64,000 nucleotides of DNA, taken from positions 50,589,469 to 50,653,468 of the forward strand of contig OZ020485.1 in assembly GCA_963971405.1 (NCBI GenBank), written 5' to 3'. Positions within the stretch are counted from its first letter, which is position 1, and the number at the start of each line of letters is the position of its first letter. Shown in pieces: positions 1,729-52,531 of the stretch. Both the position numbers and the translations under genes were made by a program. The stretch is from Psococerastis gibbosa. Taxonomy: Eukaryota > Arthropoda > Insecta > Psocodea > Psocidae. Under the pieces are notes generated by a model. The model had not been told where the DNA came from. It did no database searches and worked only from the letters and a program-made list of their open reading frames with translations.

Positions 1729-1767
1729 ATATCGCTCCTTCATATGAACAGTGGAGCTTCTGCAAAA
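1729..1767 (+). repeat. Left TIR of the 3.6-kb transposon
   Basis: 39 bp, perfect inverted match to 5308-5346. Confidence 0.93.
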
Positions 1768-1851
1768 ATCGATTTTTTTTTTTTACATGAAAAAAATTCA
1801 TTTTTTTTTGTTTTCTATCGAGGTAACATCGGTACTTCTATAGTTTGTGAA

Positions 1852-1981
1852 ATGGCCGCTAGAGAGCAGAAGTTTCGTTATTGCCTAACGCTGAATTTGG
1901 CGCGTTTGGAGTGTAAACAACGAAGTAACGCCATAGCGTCAGTCGCTGAGAAGAGGTCACGAGGTAAAGACGTTGACTCAG
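1852..1981 (+). other. Possible 5' exon of the transposase gene
   Basis: Open from ATG 1852 to a good donor (TCAG|GTAAGT at 1981/1982). Joining it to the acceptor at 2303/2304 (TTCTAG|GAGCG) puts a stop after about ten codons, so it is more likely a non-coding leader exon, with translation starting at ATG 2316. Splicing is inferred from consensus sites only. Confidence 0.4.
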
Positions 1982-2036
1982 GTAAGTTATAATGGAACAA
2001 CAGCCGATTGTACTGCCTTTGTCTGTTATGTATCAA

Positions 2037-2230
2037 AATTAAACCGGTGCTTTGGTTAATTGCATCGTTATACTCTTCAATATGGGCACAATGTGGTCAC
2101 AATCCTTCTAAATTAAACGGGTGCTTCGGCTGAAGTACCGTTTTATTCTTGAATTCGTTGACTAGTTGATGACATGTTTTTAAATGTAACCGGTGCTATG
2201 GCCGAGGTTTCGATTTAATTTTGAATTGTA
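2037..2230 (+). repeat. Three degenerate direct repeats in the transposase leader intron
   Basis: Around 2040, 2116 and 2189 the motif TTAAACCGGTGCTTTGG recurs in degenerate form (aaCgGGTGCTtcGGctga; aacCGGTGCTatGGccga) about 75 bp apart. Such subterminal arrays can be transposase-binding sites, but that role is inference. Confidence 0.55.
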
Positions 2231-2315
2231 GATTAATTTTTTCTTACTCAATATAGGATTACTGCTCCATCTTCCAAATAAAAAATGTTTTATTGTGTTC
2301 TAGGAGCGTTGCACC

Positions 2316-4894
2316 ATGAAGAGACGGACTAAACTGATTGTTCAGCTTAGTAAAAGACATGCTTTTATGAATGACGCAGGACCAGGGTCCTCTCAAGGCG
2401 AAGTATGGCGAGTATTACAGCAAGATGACACAAGACTTGTCGAAGCCTTCCCAGATAATGTGCCTTGCGATGGAGAAAATGCTGCTGGGCAGATGGAACC
2501 CGTATCTTACGGTAAGTCCAAAAATTAGTCCGACGAAGATCTTACAAAAAATTTGGCTTCACAACTTGACTGGAATAGATAATTATTAACACAGAGAAAA
2601 GGCTTCTGTGTGACCTTTGCTTATTTTATAGTCCGACCGAAAGATGTTTTTATGTTTTTAGAAATTTGGATACACAATGTTCGTGTTGTCTACATATTAC
2701 TTGATTGATTAAAAATTAATTTTTTTATCAGCTTACGAAGAGGAGCAACTTGTTGTAATGGATTCTACTGAAACTACCTTTCAAGATTTAAATAATGATT
2801 TCATCGAACTGCGACCGGTTGCCTTGCCCGAATTTAACACCAGTGTGACCGAATTTAATAATACTGAAGTTGTTGAACCTGATAAGACTGATTTTGCCGA
2901 AAAAAATGGAACAAACAGTCCGAACGATACGTATGTTACCATAGCTAATGAGGAAGAAGTTACCAAAAAAAAATTGTACTAATGCTGTGAAAACCAGTGA
3001 GACTGAAGTTGCCAAAAATAATGATGATTTTGAAATGTGGACCAGTCAAGCTCATAGTTCGACTGTTTTATTGCTTGATGAACCAAAAGATCCGTTTCAC
3101 GAATCAGATGATGAAGAAGCTGACCCGTCCTACAATCCTGAACCAAAAGAACCACAAGATGAAATTACCTCTCTGACTTTTACAAAACTGCAGCTAAAGC
3201 AAAAAAAGCCAAAGAAAGAAAATCAGCGAATTCTTGCCAAGAAACTGAAAGTCGCGGGTAAAGAATATCTCACAAAGAAAAAGAAAGTTGTCACAGCAAA
3301 AAATGCACAGCCGCCTTGCCAAAATTGCAAACTAAAATGCCCTGAAAAAATTGAACAGGCCGAAAGACAAGTACTTTTTGATACATTTTGGGCTCTTAGT
3401 GATCTGCAGCGGCAACGTCAATTTATTAAAGATAGTATGGAGACAGTTGCACCAAAGACTTAAAGAGTCACAGTAAATGCGAAATACGAAAGGAGCCAGA
3501 ATCAAGCATTCTATTTAACTGTTAGTGGCGTCAAATGTAGAGTGTGGAAGAACTTTTTTAAAGGAACCTTCAACATAACAAACAGGTTCATAAAGACTGT
3601 ACTAGAAAAAATTGACAAAGAAACACAAATTTTGGACGTTGACCACAGGGGAAAACATGACCGACACAAAAAATTAGAAGAACGTTTAGTGCAAAGTGTT
3701 CTCGACCACATTCAAAAAATACCGAAAATACCAAGCCACTATTGCCGGCAAAAGACTAGTCGTGTTTACATTGAAGGAGGAAGAACCATCTCAGAATTAC
3801 ATCGGGACTACGAAAAAGAAATGCAAGAAAATGGAAAAACAGCTGCTTCTTACAAGCAATGCATAAAAAATTTTAATACCTACAACATAAGTTTCTTTCA
3901 ACCTAAGAAAGATTTGTGTGAATTGTGTGTAGCGTTTGAAAATTCATCGGCTGAAGAACAAGCTAAACTTCAGGCAACCTACGAAGAGCATATTATAAAC
4001 AAAGACCTTGCAAGAATGGCGAAAGAAAATGACAAACTTAACACATCGACATCAACAGTTGTAGCAGTTTACGATCTGCAAGCGGTTTTACCATGCCCTA
4101 TGGGAAAAGCATCTCCCTTTTACTACGTGTCAAAGGTAGCCGTTTACAACTTAACAATTACAAACATCAAAACTTCGAAAACAATTTGCTATACATGGCA
4201 CGAGGGGGAAGGTCAGAGGGGTGCTAACGAGATAGCAACCTGCGTGTATCGTTACCTGCAAGGAATAAACGACAAACTAGAAGAAGAAATCGACGTGATA
4301 TTTTATTCGGACAATTGCACAGGACAAAACAAAAACCAGTTTATGAAAACCATGTATAGTTACGCTGTTCAAAAATTGACTTTTATAAAAAGTATAACGC
4401 ATAAATATTTAACAGTAGGGCATACACAAAATGAAGGGGACACGGTGCACTTCCTTATTGAAGACAAGGTAAAGAAGTTCCTGTTGAATGGCCCAATTTA
4501 TGTCCCATCCCAATATTTTGCCTTAATGAAACAAGTCAAACAAGGAAAACAGAAAAATGAATGTAACTTAGAAGTACAAGAATTAGGATACCAGGATTTT
4601 TTGAATTGGAAAGGATTGCCGGTGTCTGATGAATTGAAACTAACTCAATGCTGTGCTTTTCAAATCGCCAAAAATGAAGGCTTGGTCTACTTTAAAAAGT
4701 GTTTTGAGGATGATTGGAGCAAAATGAAGGTGCTTCATGGCAGGAATAAGGCAAAAGAAAAGACCTTAAATGAACCTGAAGCGGCGTACTCTGGAAGGTT
4801 ACGAATGAAAGAAAAGAAGAAGAAGCCTCTTCTTGAACTTTTGAGGAAGAGAATCATTCCATCAGCTTACTCTGATTTTTACGAAAACTTATGA
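2316..4894 (+). pseudogene. DNCxGQNKN-family transposase, spliced, one frameshift and one stop
   Basis: Translation likely starts at ATG 2316 (context CACCATGAAG). Exon 2316-2511 ends at CG|GTAAGT and joins in frame to an exon from 2732 (TTATCAG|CTTACG). The frame shifts at an A9 run near 2967, and a TAA lies at 3461-3463; upstream and downstream of the TAA the same frame is open, so it is a point lesion. Visible parts: acidic N-terminal linker; lysine-rich stretch; CxNCKLKC zinc-knuckle-like pair; the motif LQRQRQFI; RGKHDRH; PSHYCR; CELC; then three blocks that look like an RNase H-fold active site: VYDLQAVLPCP, YSDNCTGQNKN and VGHTQNEGD. The C-terminus is lysine-rich. Similar proteins are common uncharacterised entries (I believe DUF7869-like) in arthropod genomes. 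A cut-and-paste role is inferred from the flanking perfect TIRs. Confidence 0.8.
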
Positions 4895-4914
4895 GCAAAA
4901 CAGTAAAAAAGGAC

Positions 4915-5004
4915 AATGAACCTAAAGCGGTGTTCTCCGGAAGGTTGTCTGTTGAAGAAAGGAAGAAGAAGCTATTTCAAGAACTTTTGAAGAATTTTTT
5001 TTAA
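4915..5004 (+). repeat. Duplicated copy of the transposase C-terminal coding segment
   Basis: Just after the stop at 4894 a different frame encodes NEPKAVFSGRL then KKKLFQELLK and a stop. This parallels NEPEAAYSGRL...KKKPLLELLR at the end of the main frame, so the last ~30 codons are tandemly duplicated with divergence. A frame change and stop separate it from the main protein. Confidence 0.75.
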
Positions 5005-5307
5005 TAATTCCTTTAATTTGTACGAAAAGTATGAAAATAAATAAATTTTGCTATTGTTTCTAATGTGGTTTTCTATTCAAATAATGGAACATCTCCTTAT
5101 CTGAATTAAAAAGTCTACGTTAAAATGGAACATCTGCAGATTAATCGAAATCCAGCCATTGTTATGACAATGTAAAGTCGTAAGTTAATTACTAGAAAAA
5201 AATAAAAAATTTTAACGTCAACTAATTCTAAATAAGTTTTACGGCTATTGAAAAAACAATTATTTTGTTCACGCGAAAACTTTAAACCGCTCTCCTGAAA
5301 AGTAGCG

Positions 5308-5346
5308 TTTTGCAGAAGCTCCACTGTTCATATGAAGGAGCGATAT
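5308..5346 (-). repeat. Right TIR of the 3.6-kb transposon
   Basis: 39 bp, perfect inverted match to 1729-1767. Confidence 0.93.
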
Positions 5347-9335: not shown

Positions 9336-10915
9336 CTAATCGTACATTTTACTATTACATTTATCAAGCATATTTGGTGCAATTTTTAGTTTGTAACAGG
9401 GATTTTCTCCAATGTATGACTTTGCAAGAAGAAGTCCTTTTATAGTTGATAGGTCCAACCTATTTCTGGTTTTCAATTTTATCAGGTTGACACTGGAAAA
9501 TACTCTCTCACAAGCCGCGCTTGAGTGTGGCAGACTAAAAATATTTTCCACAAAAGATTCTAGACTTTTAAATGGATAGCTGCTATCAGCTCTTTGAATC
9601 TTCCCAACTTCTTTCCAGAATTCTGTGCAGGTTAATTAAAAGGTGGAATATATTTCCGGTCTAAAAAATTATGTAGGACAACTCGCAAACCATCAGTTAT
9701 AGTTTTTTTTAAGTGGTGGATTTGCGGCCGTTCCGCTTGAAATTGTCTATTCAGCTTATTAACAATTGGAAGAATGTAGTCAAGAAACATTATGTATGCT
9801 TTGGTTGTAGAATTCAAGGAATTAAATATAAATTCGGCTTGCAAGTCTTTTTCACTGTCGAAAACAACATCCGTAAAAAACAATTTAAGGGCATCCCATT
9901 GCTCCAGAAGCCTTGATACCACAGCCTCTAATGATAACCAGCGAGTAGCACTTGGGTGCAGTATCTTCTGTGGCTTTACATTTACAAAGTTTTGAAATTC
10001 TTTCAATGCAGCCGTTCTTTTCGGACTGCAACTAAAATAGTTATAAACACATCTGGTAAACTGTTCAACATATGGTGGTAATTTTTTACACGCATACGAT
10101 GCACACAAATGAAATGAGTGGCAGATACATTTCATCACGAACAATTTCGGGAGTTGTTGTGTAAATTTTTGTTGAACTGAATTATTACCTCCCATCATGA
10201 CACTTGCACCATCAGCGGCGAAACCAATCATATTTTGGCGCCATGGAATGTTCTTACTTTCCAAAGCCTGGACAACTGTGTCAAACAGCGTCTGGGAATC
10301 AGCATTATGAATTTTTATTAAGTCAAAAAATATATCTTCAACTTCATGATTGTTGACAGTTGTACGTATGACTATGCACATGCTCTTTTCGTTTGACAAG
10401 TCGGTCGACTCATCAATCATCAGTGAAAACTTACGTGTTTTCAATATTTCAATTAATATCTCTTCTTGCGTTAAACCAATTACATTGGTCACCAACTTCG
10501 TGCACTTGGTTCTACCACACGTTAATTTTTGGGCGACTTTTGACTCAGGACAGATCTCCTTAATTAAATTTGGAATGTGTTCTGCTGCCAAAAATGATAA
10601 ATTGTGTTCAGCTACATAGGCAGCAATTTTTAACTCTGCAGCCTTAACATCTTTATCTGAACTCCCTGATGTGGAGGCCAATGCGCTTCTAATGTCTTTA
10701 ACTCCAACAATTGACTTGGCCTTTAAGATGTGAGTATTTGATTCACTGTGCCTTTCTAGGCTTGTTTTACCAGCGAGTATGCTAATTTCTGTATCACAAG
10801 CCTTACAGTGTGCAAAATGCACTCCCTTTCTGCTGGAAGTTAACCAGTGTTTAAACAGTGCATTGTCTTCCCAGTCTTTTTTATAGCACTGTCCATGCCT
10901 TGCTTTAGGGGGCAT
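9336..10915 (-). pseudogene. hAT transposase (BED-type zinc finger), internal deletion
   Basis: The main frame runs from ATG 10913-10915 to 9632 (427 codons). The N-terminus has a BED-like finger (HCKACDTEI...LERHSESNTH). Then come LMIDESTD, GFAADGASVMMGG and CHSFHLCASYA, the usual hAT catalytic-region landmarks, and RWLSLEAVV. After FLDRKYIPPFN there is a stop, and a shifted frame resumes with TEFWKEVGK and the C-terminal dimerisation motif LPHSSAACERVFSSVNLIK, ending at 9336. Compared with full-length relatives roughly 100-150 residues between these parts are missing, so this is a deletion derivative with a frame change. Function when intact: cut-and-paste transposase in the nucleus. Confidence 0.88.
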
Positions 10916-11389
10916 CTTAACTTAATAGAGCAGAACAACACTACACTATTAAAAAAACTAATACTTATGAAAAATGAATACGCTACACAGAACAAAATCT
11001 GAATAATAATAATAAACAAGGAATAAAATCAAAATGGCGTTCGATTCGAGATTTCGACTTTCGAGAATCGCCAGAAATCAGAAGTGGGAAATTTAAGAAG
11101 AATGGGGTCACCAATTGTAATGTGAAAGTTTTACAACTCATTTAAGAAATCTTTGGCACAACAGAAGTTTGAGTTGCGCAAACATCTTATATATTGAATG
11201 TAGAGGGGAAAATGTTGAAATATAAATCTAGATGGTAACTTTGAAAGATACAAAGGTTATTTTTTTCGTACTTCCAAAAAAATTGAAAATGCATGAGAAT
11301 TCGGAGTTTTTGTACAATCCATCATGAGATCATGAGCTGCTCAGAAAATCATGAGATCTCATGTAATTGCATGAGGTCTGGTAACACTG

Positions 11390-11745
11390 GACGGGAGTGG
11401 TCACCGCGACAACGCCGTTCACCAAATCCCTCAACCTCAAACTGCTGGTACCACGAAACATTCGGAAACAAGGCAGGCAAATGCACACCACAATGCGAGT
11501 TCAAGTCAACAAACTAATTGCGTCACTTGACTCGGTGGCGGATAGTGACGCCCCCAATTTGGCCGCCAGCAACCGCTCCAGTCATTGCCTCATGCTTCAT
11601 GATCGCTGCACCCACTCAAGTTCCTTGATCGACACTGTGGCCGCAATCAGCAATCATACGGCAACAGACGACCCCATACTTACATACGGTTCAAAGTCGC
11701 TATCCATAGACTTGGGTCTACGTAGAGAATTTCTTAGCCTAGATG
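11390..11745 (+). pseudogene. Ty3/gypsy gag-protease relic, right part
   Basis: After the hAT end the sequence encodes CWYHETFGNKAGKCTPQC, a gag zinc-knuckle closely paralleling [19 protein letters not shown] of the intact gypsy element at 48-52 kb. Further on, in another frame, LTYGSKSLSIDLGLRREF parallels the segment after that element's protease active site. Frames are broken. This is an old relative of the 47.8-kb element, split by the hAT at 8546-11389. Confidence 0.7.
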
Positions 11746-12037
11746 TTCCAGCTTCAAAATTTTACTTAAAACGGAAATTCTAAAAACTATAACTTACGAC
11801 AAAATGGGTCACATAAAAAATAGCTTGAAATATGAAATTGAATTATAGGCCATTTCTCTTATCCTACTTCTACTGTAAATTATTTACATAAGACGATTGA
11901 CAGTATTTCACTGCGGCTACTGGCAGGAACAGAATTTAGGCTTTAACCTTACTTTATTTTCAAAACATTTGACTAAACACACACTGTATAGGTAGGCATT
12001 AGGCAATGCCTGTAACCACCCGCTTACTCGATTTATT

Positions 12038-13690
12038 ATGTTTGTAAACACGGTTTACAAGTTAGAACTAGTGACAGAACGTGGAATACTGACAAAATAT
12101 GGCACTTCTCACTGCGACCGCCTCGATCAGGCTGCAGCTCCTCAAACGCCCAATCCACCGTCTTCTCATCAACTTGCGCCCTCGGCGTCCACATCATCTC
12201 TATCCAGCAGCAGTAGGCCTACACCATGTGAAATACAAATTTTGCCTGATGATGGTTGCGATGGTGACAGTAATCGTTCTGGGCAACGCAAACGGATATT
12301 GTCACATATATACAAAAAAACCGTTAACTGCAAGCAGTTCGAAAAAAAATTGCAGAATTGATTTTTAATATGGTTATCTCAGGCTCAGGCCTTTTCTTTG
12401 TCGAGGACAAGGGTTTCATTGCTCTGTTAGAATATCTTGAGCCAAATTACGACATGCCGAGTAGGCAAGTTTTATCAAAAACAATCCTGGACCCCCAGTA
12501 TAATGCCGCCATTTCAAAGGTTAGAACCATTTTGGACCATGCTACTCATGTTACTATAACATCCGACGGATGGACTTCGAGGACCACGACGTCCTACATA
12601 GCTGTAACAGCTCATTTCATCAACGCTGATTTCCAGCTTCAATCAGCCCTGATAGGCTGCTTTGAATGCGCTGGAAGGCATACCATGGAGAACTTAAAAG
12701 AACATCATGTAGCCGTGACTGAGACGTGGGGTTTGTTTAGAAAAGGAGTGACTTGTGTGACCGACAGCGCTGCAAACATAAAAGTGGCTGTGACACTAAT
12801 ACCAATAATAATTGCATAGCGCATACAATAAATTTGATCGTGAGAAAAGGGTTAGCCCTCGATGAAGTTGAGGTTAAAAAAAATTGTGGAGTATTTTCAT
12901 CGGGATCAATAGGGACAAAAACACTCAACGATACTCAGAGCTCTTTCCAACCCGGAAAACCAGTGCTGAAGCTCATGATGGACGTCACAACCAGGTGGAA
13001 CAGCACACTGGACATGTGTCGGCGGTTGACAAAGGAGGAATGTGAAATCCTCCCAGGACTAGTTCAGGTCTTTGAGTCCTTGAAGAGATAACAGTGGAGT
13101 TTTCGTCACAGCAAAAAGTCACTATTTCAAACATTTTGGCGGCAAGGCAACTCAGAGAGTTCCTGCAGAACGTAAAGGCTGAGTCAACAGCCCCACTTCA
13201 AAAGCAATTTGTGGATGTCATAATGGCCGAGGTCAATTCCAGATTTAAGAGCTGTGAAAGCAATCCGATTCTAACGAAGGCAGCATTATTGGATCCTGAT
13301 TCAAGAGACTCGCTTTCCATGACCCTACTTCTTACGCGAATGCTAAGGCGATGTTGGGCAAGGCCGCAATGCTGAGCCTCAGACGCAGCAGGAAGCTTCA
13401 CAACCTGCACCCACTTCTTCAAATCACAAGACCCCAACCTCCAGTATTTGGACAAAATTTGATAATCTGCGGGATGCAGATGCACCTACACCTGTTACAG
13501 CTAGTGCCACAATAATTTTGAGGCAGTATTTGGAAGAGCCGCTGCTAGCATGCTGCATGGTTAACTCACTAGCCAGCCTAGCAAGTGATGTTGTCGAAAA
13601 GTGCATCAGCAAGCACCATGCACGATTAAAAACTTATGGATTAGAAATTATTTCATTTAAAAATACGACCACAGAAGGTGGCATGTCACG
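12038..13690 (+). pseudogene. hAT (ZBED1-like) transposase relic 1
   Basis: A serine/proline-rich N-terminal segment (12038-12361) is followed by SGLFFVEDKGF, ITSDGWTSRTTTSYIAVTAHF, CVTDSAANIK and, in another frame, NNNCIAHTINLIVRKGL and VTTRWNSTLDMCRRL. This is the standard order of ZBED1-like hAT proteins: DGW block, D-AAN block, H-x-NL block, RWNS block. At least three frame changes (about 12360, 12800, 13090) and stops make it inactive. The C-terminal ERxFS dimerisation motif was not found. The same family as 14556-16253, but not a simple duplicate. Confidence 0.8.
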
Positions 13691-13753
13691 TCCGTGGACA
13701 GTCTCCCCTTAAAGAAACAGAAAAGGCTATTGTGATACAACGATACGTGATAC

Positions 13754-14460
13754 GTGCCTTATTCAAAATTTTACAAATTCAAGCCCTATTGGGTTCTGGC
13801 TTCGAACCATCGGGATAGGGAGACATGTCTGTGTATGATTCATGGTAATGCTGAGCTAATGATAAAAAAGGCTCACGTTCTGGGAATCTTGCATTCAAGA
13901 GGAATAAAAAGTACCGTCAAGCTATTAATCTGTGTCACCGAAGGTGAAAGGGAAGTGCACTACTTTCCAAAAGAACGAATTATTAACATCCGCTGATCCC
14001 ACCGAAATCAAAATTAGCCAATGGATAAATAAAAAAGTAGAGATACTGACTAGAGACAAGAATAAGAAAATTGTCCGTAAATGTGTGAAAGAAGAAGTTA
14101 CATTCAAAAATACGAATGAATTTATAACTCAATTGAAGAAATATGTAAAATTAACGTTGATGCCTCATATGGCTAATCAGAATCACCAATTTGAGGCAGT
14201 TACTAGAATTAAAGAAAACTTAGGGGAATCAGACGTCGTGATACAGTGTGATTTCTCGGAGAACTATAAGTGCAAATATTCCGAGGAAGTACAATCAGTC
14301 CATTTTGGAGGTTCCAGATCCCGAATTTCATTACATACTGCTGTAGTCTACACAAAGGATAGTTGCCTATCTTTTTGCAAATTATAGGATGGCATGCGTC
14401 ACAATCCTGCCGCGATTTCTTCAAGTAAAATACAAAGAATATTATGCAGTTTGTGTACAA
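13754..14460 (+). pseudogene. 'DFSENY' transposase-like protein, N-terminal and middle part
   Basis: Two overlapping frames encode KPYWVLASNHRDRETCLC (Cys-rich entry), then QWINKKVEI, a basic linker and the landmark VVIQCDFSENYKCKYSEEVQ followed by VHFGG and SFCKL (stop) DGMRHNPAAI. I recognise this block order from uncharacterised proteins repeated in arthropod genomes. The next block expected after RHNPAAI is WSDGPSS, and that block is present at 26140-26600 as a separate fragment. The acidic residue in DFSENY may be the first active-site residue of an RNase H-type fold (inference). Broken by a frame change near 13990 and a stop at about 14386. Confidence 0.6.
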
Positions 14461-14555
14461 GTATATTTTAATTAATTTCCTCCCAAAACAAGAGGTTATG
14501 GAACCAGCATACTACAAAAACAATGTTAAAATGTTTTTTTTGTTATTTTAGGCCT

Positions 14556-16253
14556 CGTCTGATGATCCCCAGCCTTCAACTACCTCCGGCATGTCATCAA
14601 GCGTAGCCCAGCCCTTGCCTATATCCAGCTCCTGTGTGCCGACTATTCTGGCAGCCAACATGGCAGCATCAGGAAAAATCACTGACTTTGTAAGGAGGCG
14701 AATGGGTGTAACGGAGAGAAAGAAGATAATGGCCAGCTTTCTCAAGCTCTTTTATTTAGACTTGCAGCCATTCTCCATTATTGAGGATCGTGGGTTTCGC
14801 GAGTTTGTTTGCGATCTGAATCCTTTGACATCCCCACCCGCAAAACTGTGTCCCAGTCACTGATGCCAGCTCTGTACGCTACATGCGTACAGAATACAAA
14901 AGAAGCCCTAGCAAAGGTAAACAATATTTGCCTCACGACTGATGCTTGGACATCAATAAATAATGACAGTTTCATTGCCGTCACAGGGCACTTTATTGAC
15001 GAATATTTTATGTTCAGGAAGGTACTCCTTCAATGTTCTATGACGACTGAGAGGCATACAGCTGAAAATTTAGCTAGTGATCTTAAAGGAGTTCTGGATG
15101 AGTGGGACCTTAATAATAAAGTGTCTTTGGTGGTGACGGATAATGCTGCCAACATAACGAGCGCCATTAGAGACAAATTAGGGCTCAGGCATTGGGGTAG
15201 TTATGGCCACACTATTAATTTAATTGTTAACGATGCATTAGAGAACAGTGTGGTGTCTTGTCTAATAATTCGAGTGAAAGGTTTAGTCAGCCTATTTAAA
15301 AGGAGTACTGTGGCAAAGAATAGGTTGACTGAGTGTCAAAAAAATTTGGGTATGGAGCCCAAAAAAGTTCTCCAGGACGTTGCAACCTGATGGAACTCGA
15401 CGTTTTATATGCTTGAAAGGTTTTTACACCTTGAACAAGCTATACGCTCGGTTGTAGGGTAGTTGGACGCCGACGTGGAGGCTTTGACCTCAACCGACTG
15501 GACTATCTTAAAAGATCTTATAAAGGTGCTATCACCATTTGAGGCAGCCACTAAATGCACAAGTGGCGATAAGAACATGACTGCCTCAATGGTTATACTG
15601 GTCACAGATAGCCTTACTGACGTGTGCTCTGCTCTCTCAAAAGAGACACTAGTGGAACCTGTACTCGTGGTACTCAACGATTTGCAGGTAGGCCAGCAAA
15701 CAAGACTAGGCCTTATAGAAAAGAGCCAAACTCTAAGCTGCGCGACTTTTCTTGATCCTCGGCTAAAATGGTAGGCCTTTAAATCTACAACGGCCGCAGA
15801 TGCTGTAAAAGCCCTTATTATTTCGATGGTCGCAGCAGAGGTTACCAAAACACTCAGGCCTAGAGAAAGGGAAGGGTCAAACTCCGAAGTTAGCAAGCCC
15901 CCACAAACTGAAAAAGAGAAGGAAAAAGGACTGTCACTTTTTCATTTTTTTCATCATATAGTTCCCATGGAGGTTAATACCAACAAAGGTACCTCCAGAT
16001 CAAGGGCCATTGTGGAGGTCAATAGGTACTTGATGAGGACGAGTATTTACCCTTGACAAGTGACCCCAGCGCGTGGTGGCGCGATAATTGGCGGAATTAC
16101 CCCAACCTGAGCAAAATTGTGCGCTCAAAATTTTGTTGTGTGGCGACGTCTGTCCCTTGCGAACGGCTATTTTCCAAAGCCAGTAACATTTTGAGTGAGC
16201 GGAGGACACGTCTGAAGAGCAATAAAGTGTCGCAATTGTTTTTTTTTTTTTAG
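14556..16253 (+). pseudogene. hAT (ZBED1-like) transposase relic 2
   Basis: It begins after a plausible acceptor (TTATTTTAG|GCCTCG) with a serine-rich leader and KITDFVRRRM. Then come LTTDAWTSINNDSFIAVTGHF, VVTDNAANITSAI, YGHTINLIVNDAL, VAT(stop)WNSTFYMLERF, a helical domain, TFLDPRLKW, and at the end, after a one-base shift near 16030, YLDEDEYLPL, WWRDNW and the dimerisation motif CERLFSKASNIL. All hAT domains are present in order, but stops at about 15388, 15460 and 15772 and at least one frameshift disable it. A T12 run then terminates the last frame. Confidence 0.85.
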
Positions 16254-16946
16254 CGAAAACCACATGTTTATGTAGGTTAAGTAGGCTTACAATTTTGTTA
16301 TTTTAAGATTTTCTTGATGCATATAGCCTATAGCTGTCTTTACCATTGTCAAGGGGTTTCTAAATGAATCAGCAGCCCTGGTGAAAAAATTCACCTGGAT
16401 GCCTTATACAATTGCAAGTCTTGGTCCATAAATACTAAAATTTACTGCTGTCAACTAATATAATGTGGGAATACCCCCCGCCCCCCCCCCCCTTCCACCA
16501 CATTGTATTTTTTAATTATTTTTTGTAATTAAATTAAGAATGCATTTTCGTATATAAACGTGGTATTTTCGATTGCAACCATCAGAGCAGCCGTATGTAG
16601 TTCTATAGCCGACCGTAGGTCATCAGGGTACAGTATAATATTATAGACCAGGGTGCCTCATGGTCAGATGTACAGAATACGGTATATTATTAAAATTGAG
16701 TTAGAAAAGTACAGAAAATTCAATAAAACTTAAATGCCATGTGCAAGGTTCTTTTCCAAAGCGATGAATAAGATTAATATTTTAGGGAGCGAAGAACGCG
16801 ACTCGAACACAAAATTTTTAAGTGAAAATTATGAATTAATGTAATGGTTTTCCGGTTTTGATCCTCGATCCACATTATTTTTGCATCTGTAATTTTTATC
16901 AAATTCTAAAAGATAGGTGGCAAAGCAAAGCTGCCGTTTAAAATAG
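16254..16946. other. Intergenic; C-rich tract
   Basis: No gene seen. Contains a near-continuous C tract at about 16478-16493, a common feature of TE junctions in this window. Confidence 0.4.
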
Positions 16947-17620
16947 GTGTTATTACTGATTCATACGAAGGGGGCATCATATCACTTAGGTTATTTTCCA
17001 GTCGATGGTAATAATATTTATGTAATTTTTGACGCTCCTCATTTACTTAAAGCCACACGAAATACCTTAATAGAGTATGACTTTACATATGACGGGAAGA
17101 AAACAGCTTCGTGGTCCCATGCCATAGATTTTTACGCTGCTGATCAGGGTTTACCTAGACTTGCACGGAAATTGACTGATAGATGTGTCATTCCGAATCG
17201 AATCCCTAGAATGAAGGTACTGCCTGCCACTCGTTTGTTCAGCTATTCTGGTTACGCTGGTATGCGTTGTAAGGCTGAAAAATTGTTAATAACTTCAAAC
17301 GCGAGGGATACAGCAGAATGTCTTTTATTTATGAAAAACTTATTCGATACTGTTAATGCTAAGTCAAACAGACCTGAAAGGGGCTGTCCATATAAAATCG
17401 CTTACAGTGCGAAAAGTTCCCACAATATGGAATGGCTAAAGGCAATTCGGATTTTTAGTTCACTGAAGGGAATGAACAGTAGTAGGTTGTTGGTTTATTT
17501 CAAAAAGATTAGAACTTTCTATCACATGGACTCTTCAGGGAAAACTAATGAAAATGCGGCTTACCAAACAGCTGAAAATTTCAAAGCTGTCCCAGAAGTC
17601 CTTGTGTTAATTTTTTTATG
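16947..17620 (+). pseudogene. P-element/THAP9-like transposase fragment
   Basis: An open frame of about 225 codons encodes GYFPVDGNNIYVIFDAPHLL and KATRNTL, the hallmark FDxPHLLKxxRN block of P-element and THAP9 transposases. Then follow FYAADQGLPRLARKLTDR, the MKVLPATRLFS block and GKTNENAAYQTAENF. The THAP DNA-binding domain and the N-terminal catalytic Asp are absent, as is the C-terminal part, so this is a middle fragment. It passes without a stop into the region overlapped by the Ulp1-like fragment at 17621. Confidence 0.82.
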
Positions 17621-17779
17621 TGCCCTGTCCCCCAGCAGAGGAACGGCAATGATTGCGGCCTTTTCAAGCTATATTTCATGGATTTAGTGTCTAAAAGGGT
17701 CCAAGACTCGTACTCCAAAAATCTTTCCGATTCCATTACAAGACATACATTGCCGAATGAGAAAACAGATAAAACATAG
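17621..17779 (+). pseudogene. Ulp1/SENP-like cysteine protease C-terminal fragment
   Basis: In the second frame, CPVPQQRNGNDCGLF is followed by about 35 residues (KLYFMDLVSKRV...) and a stop at 17777. VPQQxNGxDCGxF is the catalytic-Cys signature of Ulp1/SENP (C48) SUMO proteases, also carried by several large DNA transposons. His and Asp of the triad are not visible upstream, where the P-element frame lies, so only the last ~50 residues survive. It is probably a TE-borne protease scrap rather than a host gene. Confidence 0.6.
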
Positions 17780-17879
17780 AGAATTCGACAACAGTTCTTG
17801 ATTACTTATACCTTCATTAATGTTAAGTATAAACCCCAAAATGCTCCCACTTACTTAACAGTTTACATCCCATAGGAAA

Positions 17880-18950
17880 TTGGCATGTGTAAATGACGTC
17901 CTGTGGCACCTTACGGTTCAGGGAAATGCCCAACTACAAAGCGAAAGGCTTACGAGGGAAGTCGTGGACCTGCAACGCGCTTTTGCAGAAGTTAAGAAAG
18001 GCGCATCCGTAAGAGCTGCCGCTAAAGCTCATTCCATTCCGGAGAAGACTTTGCGGAATAGAATTAAAGATAATAAGTCTACGAAGGGAGCGTTGGGCCA
18101 ACCTCCTGTATTAAGTTGGGAAGAAGAAAGTAATCTAGTGCTTCATTTAAAGCGCCGTCAGAAGGTTGGACTCTCCCCAACAAGACTTTCACTGCGGCAA
18201 ACTGCATACAATTTGGCTGAAGAAATGGATATTCCGCTATCGACTACTCATTTTCGGGAAGAGAGTCGCACAGCAGGCATAGGATGGCTGCGTGCATTCA
18301 TTGGACGTCATCCGGATCTCTCAGTTCGAAAAGTACAGGGCGTCTCGAACGCTCGTGCTGAAGGACTGAACAGAGAGGAAGTGCCCGATTATTTTGCTCT
18401 CTTGCAAAAAACCCTAGCCAAGCATAAGCTGTTCGATAAGCCTTTCCAACATATATAACGGAGACGAAAGCGGCCTACAGTTAAACAATGCACCGCAATT
18501 CGTCATTGCCTAAAAAGGGAGTAGATCTGTCCAAGCTACGCAATCAGTAGAGCGTGGAGAGACCATTACTGTGGTTGCCTGCTGTAATGCTGAGGGAACA
18601 TTACTGCCACCATACATCATTTTCAAGGGCAAAAACAAACAGCAAATATGAGAAGAGAACATGCCCAAAAGCCCAATGGGACACACATATCTATGAATAA
18701 AAAATCAGCGTATATTAATAACAATTCGTGTATTTCTCACATGATTTACATAACAAATTATTTTGTATTAATGAGGTCCTCTTTCTAGATAGGCTAGAAA
18801 ACCATTTTATTCCGCGGAAATCATCGGGAGCTTGTCTCCTTGTTCTAGATAGCCATGGGTCCCACACTCAGTCCCCTGTTGTTCTTGAAAAGGCATTAGA
18901 AAATGATGTCCACTTTCTTGCAGAAGTCTTATGGGTAATGGACTGCGTTA
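17880..18950 (+). pseudogene. pogo/jerky-type (CENP-B HTH + DDE_1) transposase
   Basis: The first frame (to 18458) has a pipsqueak/HTH segment (VKKGASVRAAAKAHSIPEKT), then a CENP-B-type second HTH (GIGWLRAFIGRHPDLSVRK). A frameshift at about 18456 leads to YNGDESGLQLNNAP (first catalytic Asp, GDES), ETITVVACCNAEGTLLPPY and IFKGKN. After a further break come FIPRKSSGACLLVLDSHGSH (second Asp, LDSHGSH) and NDVHFLA. The block that normally follows (HxLQPLD) is missing here. A related C-terminal block is at 26890-27905. Several frame breaks make this copy inactive. Confidence 0.85.
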
Positions 18951-35050: not shown

Positions 35051-35770
35051 AAAAAAAAAAAAAATCCACCGAGTACGATGGTTGAACAAATCCCATTACC
35101 GGCATCACCGTCAACGGAGAAAGAGCAGGTCTGTGTTTCAGCCAAACCGAAGAAAAGGAAACGTACATCTGAGCAAAGAGAGGGGCCTCGTCAGTCCAAT
35201 CAAAAGTCCACGGGGGATGGTGCATCAATGGAACCCCAAAATTCGACGCAGTTCAGGGGAATAGGAAAAGCTACGTGTCTCATTTTGGGCTCCTCAATAC
35301 TACAAGGTGTCAAACAGCATATTGAGAAAAAGAAAGCCTACGTTGCATGTCGTCCTGGAGCCACTGCGGGGTCACTCCTACAAGAAGTGGAGAAACTGGG
35401 AGTAAATAAAGTAGTACAGCTTATTTCCTTGTATGTAGGTGGGAACGATCTCTCTCAAACAGGCTGTCCGGACACAGTAGTAGGCGATATACTTAATTTA
35501 GTGCACTCTCTAAAAGTTAAATTCCCAAATGCCTATATCTTATTGAATGGCCTTCTTTACCGTAAAGACTGTAAAGCCAAAGCTATAGATGCTACGAACA
35601 ATAACTTCATATGGTTAAGTAAGACATTTAAAGTAGGCTATGCGGCTCCAGCTAAGATCCATGCAACAAGCTTTGTCCGGGATGGGATACATCTAAGCAA
35701 ACCGGGAAGCAGAGACCTTGCTAGTCACTTAAAAAACTACTTGAGCGCCATATCTCCTCTAATAACCTAA
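34353..35770 (+). CDS. CR1-type LINE ORF1 protein (PHD finger, coiled coil, esterase), frameshifted
   Basis: ATG 34353 opens a PHD-like finger (CEVCTTHFMN, CDLCHTWFAKAC, then FWMCHYCKN), followed by about 130 residues of charged coiled coil. A purine tract (about 34991-35064, A-runs separated by G) encodes only lysines/glutamates and holds a frame change. The next frame continues through SAKPKKRKR into an SGNH-type esterase domain: LILGSSILQGV (nucleophile GSS), VGGNDLS, and DGIHLSKPGS (Asp-x-x-His block), ending at TAA 35768-35770. PHD plus esterase in ORF1 is a known arrangement in CR1-clade LINEs. The only lesion is in the homopolymer, which may be a true frameshift or an assembly error. 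Confidence 0.85.
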
Positions 35771-38550
35771 AAATTAATGAAAGCCAGGACAATTTGGGTA
35801 TTGCACACTTAAATATTTGCTCACTAAGAAATAAGGTTAATGAACTGGAGGTTTTTATACAGGCAATTAAAAAGAAACTCGATGTAATTGTTCTTTCAGA
35901 GCACTGGCTGTCAACAGATACCGTGCAGTACTTTATCCCCGAGGGCTACCAACTTAAATCCGCTTTTTGTAGGGACTCTGCCCAACCTCACGGGGGTGTA
36001 CTCATCTGCTGTAAAGTGGGCATGGAGTGTACAGAGATAAGGGAAATTGCAGACCTGTCGATTGAAAAGCACTGCGAACTGTCCGCAGTCAAAGTTGAAA
36101 ATTCAGTAGTCATTGGCGCATATCGTACCCCTGATGGCTCCATGCCCGTTTTCCTTCAGATTATGGGCAGGGCACTTGAGCTCGCCCATAAACAAAGGCG
36201 TGCGTACGTGTTAGGGGATTTTAATGTATGTTGCCTAAAGAAAGAAAGGGACTTCACAACATTGGCAGAATTGTTTGCAGAGTTTGGCTACAAACATATT
36301 ATAAACAGCCCAACTAGGGGCGAGAGTTGTATCGACAACATTTTTGTAAAAGTATCGAGTGAAATCCCAAAAGGGGAAGTACTAAAGCATTCAATATCTG
36401 ACCATTACGGTGTATACTGCCAGGAAAAAGGCCTTTTTGCGAGGGAGAAATCGGAACCTTTTTTCTTTTCTCGCTGCCCCAATAATATAACACTCAAGAA
36501 ATTTTCTGAAAGTCTCTTACAGCTGGACTTATCCTTCTTAATTTCGAATGAACTGCACATTGACACAAAATGGGAAACTTTTCTAGCACTGGTAATAAGT
36601 TGTTATAATACCACATTGCCAGTAAAAAAGATTAAGAAAAAACCCCATGTCAATAAAAAATGGTTCAGCGAAGAATTAAAATTAATGAGGGATTCGTTGA
36701 GAGATATGTATTGCTATTATAATAGCTTTCCGACTGTAGTAAATAGGAAAAGGTATAATAAAGTGAAGTTTCAATACAGAAAAGCCATTAATGATGCAAA
36801 AATAAAATTAAATGACAACGAAATAAAAAAATCTGGGAACCCAACCAAAAAAATGTGGAGCATTATAAACTTAAAAAGAGGAGTTGTTAAAGTGCCAAAT
36901 GACAGTTCTAGCCGGCCGAAACCAAGTCATCTCAATGAGTTTTTTATAAATATACCACGAAATCTGAAACAAAACTTAACTGACCCAGTAAATATGAATG
37001 ATGCACTAGACTTCTCAGTGATTCATTGTCAGCGATTCCATTTTGAACCTATCACTGAGAAACACCTCACTGAATTGGTGAAGGAAATAAAAAATAGCTC
37101 CGCGACGGACATAGATGGAATAAATACTCAGATAGGGAAGATAATAGCTGAAACCCTTCATACCCATCTACACTATCTTATAAACAGCTGCATAGTGAGC
37201 TCAAGATTTCCAAAATGTTTAAAAATCGCCAAAATAGTGCCTATCTTTAAAAAAGGGGATAAATCAGACCCAAATAATTATAGGCCCATATCAATACTGC
37301 CATTTTTCTCCAAAATCCTCGAAAAGATAATGAAGGAACAAATTAGTGGTCATTTCGAAACATTTAACCTTTTCAATGCCCACCAATACGGTTTCCGGAA
37401 GAAACGCTCGTCTAACGACGCCATTATGGCATTCAGTAAGCGGACATTGAAGGCATTTTTTGATCAAATGTATTCTGTAAGTTCCTTCTACGACCTCTCG
37501 AAAGCTTTCGATTGCGTTCCCCACGAGCTCCTCCTAATGAAACTTAAAAAGTACCACTTCCGACAGTCTGCTTTGGATTTCGTGAGGTCTTTTCTCAGTG
37601 ACAGATATCAGACTGTAGTTGACGGCTCAATCCAATCAGAGCTCTTAAAAGTAGAGATAGGTGTACCACAGGGCTCAGTTCTTGGACCAGTCCTGTTTAT
37701 AATACAAACAAATGATTTTCCACAAATATGTACAAATGCAGACTACTTTATTTTCGCCGACGATAAAACCACCAGTGTTGTCGAGGCGGACTTGAATGTG
37801 GCTAAGCAGAGAAATGAAGTTATTAGAGGAAAAGTAAAGAGCTGGATGAATGCAAACGGTCTCACATTGAATGAAGCCAAAACTGTAGATCTAGTTTTTA
37901 CAATGCGTGAAATGCCTCCGAACATTGTGGAGAGCGTTAAGTTTCTAGGCGTTCATCTTGACCCAGGCATGTCCTGGCAGACACACTGTGACCTATTGTG
38001 CAAAAAACTAAGTTCCCTATCTTTCTTACTACGTAGCCTGTCGTCCAGTGTCTCGGTCAGCGTTTTACGTTCATGCTATTTTGCATGCTTTCATAGCCAT
38101 ATAGAGTATGCTCTCTCGGTATGGGGCCACTCAGTGCATGCAACACGAGTGTTCGGCTTGCAAAGGAGAAGCATACGAGTGCTGGCCTCCAGAGGCTACA
38201 TGGAAGACTGCAGAGAGGACTTCATCTCACTTGAAATTTTGACACTACCCAGTGCCTACATACTAAAATGCCTGGTGTATGTGTTCGATGAACGAAGCTC
38301 TTATATAACAAACTCAGCCGTGCATAACTATAACACCAGAAATGCTGGAAATCTTCAGGTGCAGTTCACTAGAATAAATAGAGTCAAAGATTGCGGAAAT
38401 TATTGGGGCATAAAGTTTTTTAATTACCTTTCAGAAGGCACAAAGACACTGAGCAGGAGCAATTTCAAGGTTCGGGTGAAGAAGGCTCTTATACGGAGGG
38501 CATACTATTCCCTGGCCGAGGCATTGGAGGATAGGCTGGGAGAGTTATAA
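35771..38550 (+). CDS. CR1-type LINE ORF2: endonuclease-reverse transcriptase
   Basis: One open frame of 918 codons from the TTG at 35794; the frame stays open further upstream into the end of ORF1 and contains no ATG before the first domain, so initiation may involve reinitiation or a frameshift. Domains: APE-type endonuclease (AHLNICSLRNK, VLSEHWL, LGDFNVC, SDHYGVY), then RT with PIFKKGDKSDPNNYRPIS, YGFRKKRSSNDAI, FYDLSKAFDCVPHELLL, GVPQGSVLGPVLF and FIFADD, followed by a thumb and a C-terminal region with HSHIEYALSVWG and LASRGYMEDCREDF. All catalytic blocks are present and uninterrupted, so the enzyme could be functional. It nicks target DNA and copies LINE RNA by target-primed reverse transcription. 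Confidence 0.92.
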
Positions 38551-48440: not shown

Positions 48441-48589
48441 AACGTCTCATCCGGCCATAGGCGGTGGAAACCACCCCGGAGCAGCTACATTCACCGCAGC
48501 AGCACAGCCACAACCATTGCAGCTACAACCGCTACAGCTACAACTGCTACAGCCACCGACACCCACCGACACCCACGGCTACAACCAAG

Positions 48590-51500
48590 ATGACAGGCCC
48601 TGCTAGTACGATGGCAGTCTCGGTCAAGCTTCCACCCTTCTGGACACAGTCGGCCAACCTGTCACCGGCACTGTGGTTCACTCAAGCGGAGGCTCAGTTC
48701 GCACTTGCTGGGGTCACAATGGAAACGACGAAATATTACCACGTCCTTTCAGCGCTCGACCAAAGTACCCTCAGCGAGATCTCAGATTTGTTAGCTGCCC
48801 CAGTACCAGTAAACTCATACACTGAGCTAAAAACGCAATTAATCCAACGAATGAGTCTTCCAGCAAGCAGTCGCATTCAGCTACTAATGTCGGAAAACAT
48901 AGGGGACAAAACTCCCAGCTCTTTTCTCCGGAGACTGCGGGCCCTCGCTGAGAAAGCCATATCAGACTCGGTTTTACGCACCATTTGGACGTCTCGCCTC
49001 CCGCACGCTATACAATTGGCAATCATCGGTCATGATCACCTGTCACTAGATGACGTCGCGAACCTCGCCGACAAGATGGCCACCATCAATTCAGCAACAC
49101 GTGACCGGATTCTTGAGTGCACAATGGCCCCTGTGGACCTATTGAAGACGTTAACAGAGAACGTCGCGGCTCTACAGGCACAGTTCGCCGACAGATACGG
49201 ACAACGTGCCACACAGCCACGGTTCCAGCGCCAGTTCCGTTCACCAGCGCCTAAACAAGACCCAACTTGGTGTTTTTACCACCAAACCTATGGGAGGAAG
49301 GCCAGAAAGTGCCAGCAGCCATGCAGATTTCCGAAAAAACGACGATCGCAGCCAGTAAAGGCAGGGCCTGCCTGCGCCACTACACACCTGCTTAAAACCT
49401 CACATCGCCTTCTTATCACGGACCCTAGCACCAAGATACGTTATCTCATTGACACAGGGTCCGACATCTGCGTTTTTCCACGTGCCCGTCTCAACCTACC
49501 GCTCCGTCGTACTCAACTCGAGCTGACTGCCGCCAATGGCACAATCATCAATACGTACGGAACAACAGCTCAACAACTGGACCTGGGATTACGACGCAGT
49601 TTCCGTTGGAATTTCATCATTGCCGATGTCACGCAACCCATCATCGGTGCAGACTTTCTCGCAGCCTCTAATTTGCTGGTGGATCTCCAGAACTCAAAGC
49701 TGATCGACGGGACAACGCATCGCAAGGCGAACCTGTGTCAAAGCCCCTCCAAGCAACCTAGCGTTTCTACCTTAACAATACCGCACAGTACCCCGGCCAG
49801 TCTAAAAGTAATAATTGAGGAGTTTAGCGACCTCACGCGGCCGAGACAACCCACAGACCAGGTCAAACACTCCACGGTCCACTACATTAGAACGACAGAC
49901 GGACCTCCCGTCTCCGCTCGCCCACGCCGGTTGGCCCCGGACAAGTTTATTATCGCCAAAAAGGAGTTCAACGACATGATCCAGACCGGCGTATGTCGTC
50001 CGTCCGACAGCCCATGGGCCTCACCATTACACCTAGTACCTAAAAGCGACCATTCATGGCGCCCATGCGGGGACTACAGACGGCTCAATGCTCGAACAAT
50101 TCCTGACGCGTACCCAGTCCGCCACATCGCAGATTTCAGTGCAGAATTGCGAGGAAAAACCGTATTCAGCAAAATAGACCTGGTCAAAGCATTCACCCAG
50201 ATACCAGTTTCCAATGGTGACATTCCAAAGACAGCAATAAATACTCCGTTCGGCCTTTTCGAATTCCCATTCATGACATTCGGTCTTCGCAATGCTGCTC
50301 AAACCTTCCAACGCTTCATGGATAACATCCTACGCGACCTCCCGTGGGCATATTCATACATCGACGACGTACTGGTTGCATCGAGTGATAAGTAGGAGCA
50401 CGAATCACACCTACGTCAACTCTTCCAACGATTCCGAGAATATGGCCTGGTCATTAATCCTAGCAAGTGTACCCTCGGCGTTGGGTCAATCAGCTTTCTT
50501 GGTTACCTCGTGTCAGCAGAAGGCACACAAGCCCTACCAGACAGGGTAAAGGCACTCACTGAATACCCTCTTCCAAAGACATTCAAAGATCTACGCCGTT
50601 TCCTTGGCATGATTAACTACTACCGCCGGTTCCTACCAAATGCAGCCAACGAACAAGCACCACTCAACACGTTGTTATCTGGAGACAAGGTAAAAGGGAA
50701 CGCAACGATACCATGGACAACAAAGCTTACCGAAGCTTTCAGCTCATGCAAACACAGTCTGGCACGCATCACGCTACTCGCGCATCCAGATCATACGGCT
50801 CCGATTGCACTAGTCACAGATGCATCAGACACCAGTATCGGAGCTACAGTCCAACAACGGATCAACGATCATTGGCAGCCATTGGCATTCTTCTCGCAGA
50901 AACTTAAAGAAAACCAACGAACATGGTCCGCCTACGATCGCGAATTGCTTGCGGTACACGACGCCATTCGTCATTTCCGATACTTGCTAGAAGCGCGCGC
51001 TTTTGTCGTATATACCGATCACAAACCGTTGACGCACGCTTTTCAGAATCCAAAAACAAGTTGCTCACCTCGCCAAATGCGGCAAATGGAATTCGTCTCT
51101 CAATTCACCACGGACATCCAATACATCGCTGGGCAGGACAACTTGGCCGCTGATGCATTCTCAAGAATCGAAGCAATCTCTACTCCCGTATCTCCTGAGC
51201 AACTTTCTTCTGCTCAGAAAGACGACAGAGAACTCAAAGAGCTTCGGTCCAGTAGAAAGACGTCCCTCATCCTCGTTGATGTTCCCATTCTGGGCTCTGA
51301 TTCAGTCCTTACGTGCGATTCTAGTCAAGACATACAACGCCCATTTGTGCCCAAACCATTACGTCGACAACTTTTCGAGCACCTACACAGCCTACATCCC
51401 CCAGGAATAGCAGCGTCTGCTAACCTGGTTGCCCAACGCTACATATGGCCTTCTATCCGTAAAGATTGCCGCGCCTGGGCTCGTCTGTGTGTCAACTGTC

Positions 51501-52531
51501 AATTGTCCAAGATACATCGACACACCCTCACTGCGATTGGAACCTTTACTCAGCCTGACCGACGGTTTCAGCACATACACCTCGACATTGTAGGCCCATT
51601 ACCACCGTCGGAAGGCTACACGTATTTGCTAACACTCGTTGACCGTTTCACGCGATGGCCGGAAGCCGCTCCTATGGTGAACATCACCGCCGAAAACGTC
51701 GCCAGAACCCTCATTTCCTGCTGGATCAGCCGGTTTGGGTGCCCGGAGACAATTACTACAGATCGCGGCCGACAGTTTGAGAGCCATTTGTTTGCTGACC
51801 TGGCCCGATTATGCGGATTTCACCATGCACGGACTACCAGTTACCACCCTGCATCCAACGGCATGGTAGAGCGTATGCACCGCTCACTCAAAGCCTCCAT
51901 TATGTGTCATGCCAATGACAAATGGACGGAAGCCCTTCCGCTAGTTTTACTGGGCATGCGCGCCACTCTTAAGAAAGATCTTCAAGCTTCTCCAGCAGAT
52001 CTGGTCTATGGTGAACCATTAAAACTACCAGGACAGATGCTGACAACTCCTCCTTCAAATCAGAGTCCGGCGGACACTCTCATCTCACTTCGACGGAAAT
52101 TCGACTCACTACGCCCCACTCGCGTCAAGAGACACGGGGCTCATCAAACATTCATCCCACAAGACCTTGCCAAGGCCACGCACGTTTTCGTGAGACAAGA
52201 CCACGTCCGTGCTTCCCTCGAACGTCCTTATGCGGGACCATTCCCTGTGTTAAGTCGCACCGACAAAACAGTTACGATTTCAAGCCGCGGTCGTGCGGTT
52301 ACTGTGTCAATGGACAGGGTCAAGCCGGCCTACATTAATGCCAGTACAGACGAACCGTCTCACCAGTCTACGATCAACCCCCCGCATCAGCATCCTGCTC
52401 AAGATAAACCTCAGGAGAAGGTCTCCTCACCACTTCCTGCCACTGACGTCGTGCCGACACCACCGACTCGCACCACTCGCTCAGGTCGTCACGTCCACGT
52501 TCCACGACATTTCTCCGACTTCCAGTCTTAG
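48590..52531 (+). CDS. gypsy gag-pol polyprotein, one in-frame amber codon in RT
   Basis: Counting from ATG 48590 (the frame is open further upstream, but this Met starts the gag-like part): gag with a [14 protein letters not shown] knuckle at about residue 228; aspartic protease LIDTGSD at about 286-292; RT with [10 protein letters not shown] and YSYIDDVL (Y of YIDD at about 590); RNase H with VTDAS (Asp at about 744); integrase zinc-binding H-H-C-C region, then catalytic Asp at about 999 (LDIVG), Asp at about 1058 (TTDRG) and Glu at about 1094 (MVERM), a D,D-35-E spacing. A TAG at 50393-50395 (codon about 602) falls 12 codons after YIDD; the same frame is open on both sides, so the lesion is a single nonsense codon. 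All other active sites are present. Confidence 0.94.

Follow-up and report, generated by a model that had tools for sequence, protein, structure and literature searches.

A probable transposase of the DUF7869 family in a CG-ended mobile element of Psococerastis gibbosa

An interrupted gene between perfect inverted repeats

We analysed a stretch of 64,000 nucleotides from the genome of the psocid Psococerastis gibbosa (contig OZ020485.1, positions 50,589,469 to 50,653,468; hereafter the window), which carries close to its left edge a mobile element with a gene of the protein family DUF7869. Positions refer to the window and to its forward strand unless stated otherwise. Two inverted arms, at 1729-1767 and 5308-5346, lie about 3.5 kb apart and are identical at 39 of 39 nucleotides. 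A sequence-only reading of the window had taken these arms as perfect 39-bp terminal inverted repeats (TIRs), which we confirm with one correction: since ATAT is its own reverse complement, each arm holds a 35-bp TIR together with a 4-bp target-site duplication. The left duplication (ATAT, 1729-1732) is followed by the left TIR (1733-1767), which starts with CG, a terminus also found in three other families; the right TIR, detected by repeat search, occupies 5308-5342 on the reverse strand and is followed by the right duplication (ATAT, 5343-5346). The element proper thus spans 1733-5342, or 3,610 bp, with ATAT on either flank, and its left subterminal part is AT-rich.

The gene ends in an open frame of 476 amino acids (3464-4894) that matches the Pfam profile PF25273, DUF7869 (E value 6.2e-9), and contains all three sequence blocks that had attracted attention at the outset, VYDLQ, YSDNCTGQNKN and VGHTQNEGD. 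Upstream of this catalytic frame, a N-terminal coding part at 2732-3460, delimited by open reading frames and by alignment to the closest relative (P0001, 797 amino acids), encodes an acidic/basic linker and then the cysteine motif PPCQNCKLKC. A putative first coding exon with an ATG at 2316 (2316-2511, within an open frame at 2304-2528) would lie between two putative introns, 1982-2303 and 2512-2731, both proposed from their GT-AG sites, and excision of the second joins this exon in frame to position 2732. A spliced gene structure is plausible on this basis.

The coding region is damaged. Its frame shifts near an A run at 2965-2973 within the N-terminal coding part, and an in-frame TAA at 3461-3463 sits immediately before the catalytic frame; the alignment to P0001, with 54% identity over 2978-4891, runs across this TAA. 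Given the stop codon and the frame change, this copy has probably lost its activity despite perfect ends, and the earlier description of a complete transposon was too strong. The C-terminal coding end is imperfectly repeated at 4769-4994 in two 80-nt units of 78% identity, the second of which lies beyond the stop codon and near a weak match to residues 752-781 of P0001 (E 0.010).

Copies, target duplications and end signals in the same genome

A search of the genome recovered the whole element once, and both of its ends once more on a second contig (C15), where they lie 19.9 kb apart in different flanking sequence and again next to ATAT. The other rows of this search comprised a 66% stretch on contig C13 and three short matches that resemble ends (82-93%), and end-only copies are perhaps undercounted in this tally. 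The low copy number of the exact family, with two sets of ends, is what might recommend the notion that the inverted repeats arose by chance or as a tandem-inversion artefact. This notion, which we regard as next to impossible, is refuted, because the ends, identical over 39 of 39 nucleotides about 3.5 kb apart, recur as a second copy at another site with other flanks.

In the copy on C15 (7951015-7970911, loci L039-L041; 19.9 kb), about 93 bp remain at the left end and 1,051 bp at the right. The interior of this copy encodes a piggyBac-type DDE_Tnp_1_7 domain (E 7.7e-70) and a YqaJ domain (E 9e-15), while one of the three frames scanned had no match, and it includes further frames that we take, by eye, to be mariner-like and hAT-like. 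The presence of other mobile-element genes in the interior rules out a single large cargo-carrying element, and the copy reads as a nest of insertions instead.

A protein search of the genome returned 66 matching stretches, not all from separate copies, and revealed the same kind of gene in three related families. Both ends could be read in four families (the window element, L016-L021, L012/L013/L015 and L023), and all ends read start with CG. Among the nine elements with both ends seen, eight are flanked by an exact 4-bp duplication: ATAT for the window element, the C15 copy, L017, L018 and L013, ATAA for L021, AATG for L015 and TATG for L023. The sole mismatch is L016, with CCTT on one side and CTGG on the other, and for a pair of 4-mers drawn at random from the window plus four other stretches of this genome the probability of agreement is 0.005. 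Left out of this count were L019, L020 and L022, which have a common right flank (the left end being truncated in L019 and L020), the one-ended L012 (ATTT), L026 (CATT) and L029 (TTAT), a stretch without CG ends shared by L014 and L033, and L031/L032, L024/L027/L030/L038 and the weaker protein-search matches, whose ends were not found or not sought. A diverged stretch resembling a left end is present in two further loci, L042 and L043, where the 8.0 and 6.5 kb examined contain no partner for it.

The palindromic ATAT alone is ambiguous as to where the element begins. The sister insertions with the non-palindromic ATAA, AATG and TATG, however, place the element boundary at CG and fix the duplication length at 4 bp; they exclude a 39-bp TIR without duplication as well as a duplication of TA or AT. 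The 4-bp ATAT duplication that had initially been mentioned as a possibility is borne out by this constant length across four families.

Besides their CG termini, the four families share a signal at one end. The 9-mer TCTCCTGAA, located in the window at 5291-5299, lies near the right terminus, starting at a distance of 52-54 bp, in the window element, L017, L013 and L023, which represent four divergent CG-ended families. In all four it is missing from the leftmost 145-150 bp. Mononucleotide shuffling produced 4 hits in 20,000, a test that is not independent, because the motif had been spotted by eye beforehand. In the fifth family (L014/L033), which lacks CG ends, TCTCCTGAA was not seen in the end examined, and a similar TTCCTGAA is present. 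At the left end, CATCTGGTGG occupies the same place in two of the four CG-ended families. Common descent alone could explain the sharing of both motifs, and TCTCCTGAA is a possible binding site.

Predicted transposase core and bacterial relatives

The predicted structure of the 476-amino-acid frame (AlphaFold2, predicted local distance difference test score 89.9) has an RNase H fold, and every one of the 50 entries in the list of structural alignments is an integrase or an Asp-Asp-Glu (DDE) transposase. The three sequence blocks supply one aspartate each: Asp204 in VYDLQ (codon 4073-4075) at the end of strand 1 (residues 198-205 by DSSP), Asp283 in YSDNCTGQNKN (4310-4312) at the end of strand 4 (276-283), and Asp326, the final Asp of VGHTQNEGD (4439-4441), at the start of the last core helix (324-342). 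All 121 of the 121 aligned rows have Asp at these three places. Their carboxylates thus lie, in the predicted structure, at the positions expected for the RNase H-fold DDE/D class, and they are the likely first, second and third catalytic residues. The suspected RNase H-fold active site stands up to this comparison, and the transposase role is supported by the fold together with the second copy of the ends and the constant 4-bp duplications.

The likeness to the Mos1 and SETMAR mariner transposases and to retroviral integrases is one of fold only, with no sequence-family match. In contrast to these enzymes, the third acid is an Asp, 43 residues past the second Asp, and the element differs from Mos1 and SETMAR in its varied 4-bp duplication, which is not TA. 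Sequence searches of the PDB gave no significant match (best E values 1.1 and 0.03; the 0.03 match fell outside the catalytic core), NCBIfam profile searches gave none near the cut-off, and no relative was found in the viral contigs searched or in the phages searched with the window protein. The direct profile match is to PF25273, to which Pfam assigns no function; that of a transposase is proposed here. By their source names, DUF7869 relatives come from insects, a crustacean and molluscs. The name DUF7869 is absent from the literature searched, where the motif GQNKN occurred only in five papers whose titles point to unrelated topics.

Bacterial DUF7869 proteins are homologous to the animal family over 466 columns (hhalign E 1.6e-18), and the five that were scanned match the Pfam profile with E values of 4.8e-14 to 4.2e-25. 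In six of the nine bacterial loci found (L059-L067), namely L059, L060, L062, L063, L064 and L065, the gene lies between TIRs of 40-61 nt, and such TIR-bounded bacterial DUF7869 elements are new here. Like the window element, they carry a gene of the same family (split over two frames in L060) with 79 residues between the first and second Asp; from the second to the third, L064 has a spacing of 42 and the window element one of 43. Unlike it, they measure about 2.1 kb in five of six cases (2.7 kb in L062), and their ends are mostly GGG rather than CG. No terminal pair was seen in L061 and L066, and between the paired ends of L067 (64 nt, 75%) there is also a second frame in reversed orientation.

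Eight bacterial loci were read by eye (L059, L060, L062-L065, L067 and L072; L074 was omitted, its ends being off-pattern). Exact flanking 4-mers were found in L059, L060 and L065, with ambiguous element ends, because the flanking 4-mers in all eight loci start with A and end with T on both sides (A--T); these flanks may reflect a target preference or may be part of the end. A script trying a few offsets reported possible duplications for L059, L063 (5 bp) and L065. The genomes of L059, L060, L062, L063, L064 and L067 each gave one match (six of six), and plasmids searched with the bacterial protein yielded no relative. One bacterial relative, P0138, is labelled 'chaperonin' in database records, likely a misannotation, judged by its relatives. 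A tree built from 24 chosen rows separates bacteria from eukaryotes with support of 100/100, and the eukaryotic sequences form two clades (100/100 and 100/99), with the long-branched own_L014 outside both.

The bacterial elements also bear on whether the DUF7869 protein could be a passenger or a domesticated host gene in an element that another enzyme mobilises. In favour of this, DUF7869 entries are listed as uncharacterised proteins in many insect genomes. We nevertheless judge this very improbable: the protein is predicted to fold like a DDE enzyme, the gene is common to four families together with CG ends and 4-bp duplications, and, apart from this gene, the open reading frames of the 3.6-kb window element include no long one, with Pfam scanning confined to the longer frames. 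Nor do the six clear bacterial elements hold an independent frame of at least 130 amino acids between their TIRs, other than those overlapping the gene or an end.

Placement, mechanism and meaning

Taken together, the element at 1733-5342 is very probably a class II cut-and-paste DNA transposon that encodes one DUF7869-type transposase with an RNase H-like core of three aspartates (DDD), its mechanism being deduced from fold and anatomy. Several known superfamilies do not fit. A TTAA duplication, which defines Kolobok, is present in none of the nine elements, excluding piggyBac and Kolobok; AATG and ATAA in place of TA exclude Tc1/mariner; and a Gypsy-type integrase (Pfam rve), as in Ginger, is missing from the window frame, where DUF7869 is the only match at E values up to 10.

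Membership in the already described Sola superfamily (subgroups 1, 2 and 3), which was reportedly founded by Bao et al. in 2009, appears rather likely and would refine the transposon interpretation. The proposed link between DUF7869 and Sola is drawn from published features. In one account, Sola elements have a DDD transposase, a 4-bp target-site duplication, TIRs of 11-1124 bp and mostly a size of 2-9 kb, and occur in bacteria and metazoans (PMC10741241); two others report them from insects (PMC7728395, PMC9783078). Every feature compared agrees with the window element: the invariant Asp204, Asp283 and Asp326 in an RNase H-like arrangement, with catalysis predicted, the 4-bp duplications (L016 differing), the 3,610-bp length with 35-bp TIRs, and the host range from bacteria (L059-L067) to insects, a crustacean and molluscs. 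Against this placement, Sola appears in none of the names shown for 360 listed proteins, where names are abbreviated and most rows nameless.

A less probable option, which we consider possible but doubtful, is that DUF7869 constitutes a separate, unnamed superfamily of DDD cut-and-paste transposons that extends from insertion sequences of bacteria to two or more deep lineages of animals, the animal members sharing the asymmetric right-end TCTCCTGAA across divergent families. The family is known here only as DUF7869, its database names are uncharacterised or hypothetical, and it is large and divergent, with the deep splits seen in the tree. The feature-by-feature match to Sola argues against it, however, and so common a family would hardly have escaped Repbase. 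The initial view of an uncharacterised family holds for the annotation, whereas the element type has probably already been named in the transposon literature as Sola.

In the most likely course of transposition, the N-terminal part with its cysteine motif would recognise the 35-bp TIRs, and possibly also the subterminal motif, and Asp204, Asp283 and Asp326 would hold two metal ions. Cleavage by the enzyme would fall at the CG terminus of either end, and the cut ends would be joined to an A/T-rich target at breaks staggered by 4 bp. Repair would convert the stagger into the 4-bp duplication.

The window also harbours other mobile elements. A non-long-terminal-repeat retrotransposon frame with endonuclease and reverse transcriptase lies at 35725-38550, and a Gypsy-like retrotransposon at 48461-52531 consists of two adjoining frames, one with DUF7041 and reverse transcriptase, the other with RNase H and integrase. 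Pieces of other DNA transposons at 9632-18458 include DUF4371 and DUF659 (both below the Pfam cut-off), a TNP-like GTP-binding insertion domain and a Tc5-type helix-turn-helix.

Our data suggest a likely function for a common domain of unknown function. Insect and mollusc entries of DUF7869 recorded as 'uncharacterized protein', and bacterial ones recorded as 'hypothetical protein', are probably transposases, and gene sets should therefore mask them. The homology, which covers most of the protein, connects a transposon type of animals with TIR-bounded elements of bacteria, so that its origin becomes testable. With defined ends (CG-ended TIRs and a 4-bp A/T-rich target) and a triad of aspartates, the family offers a basis for a first biochemical test.
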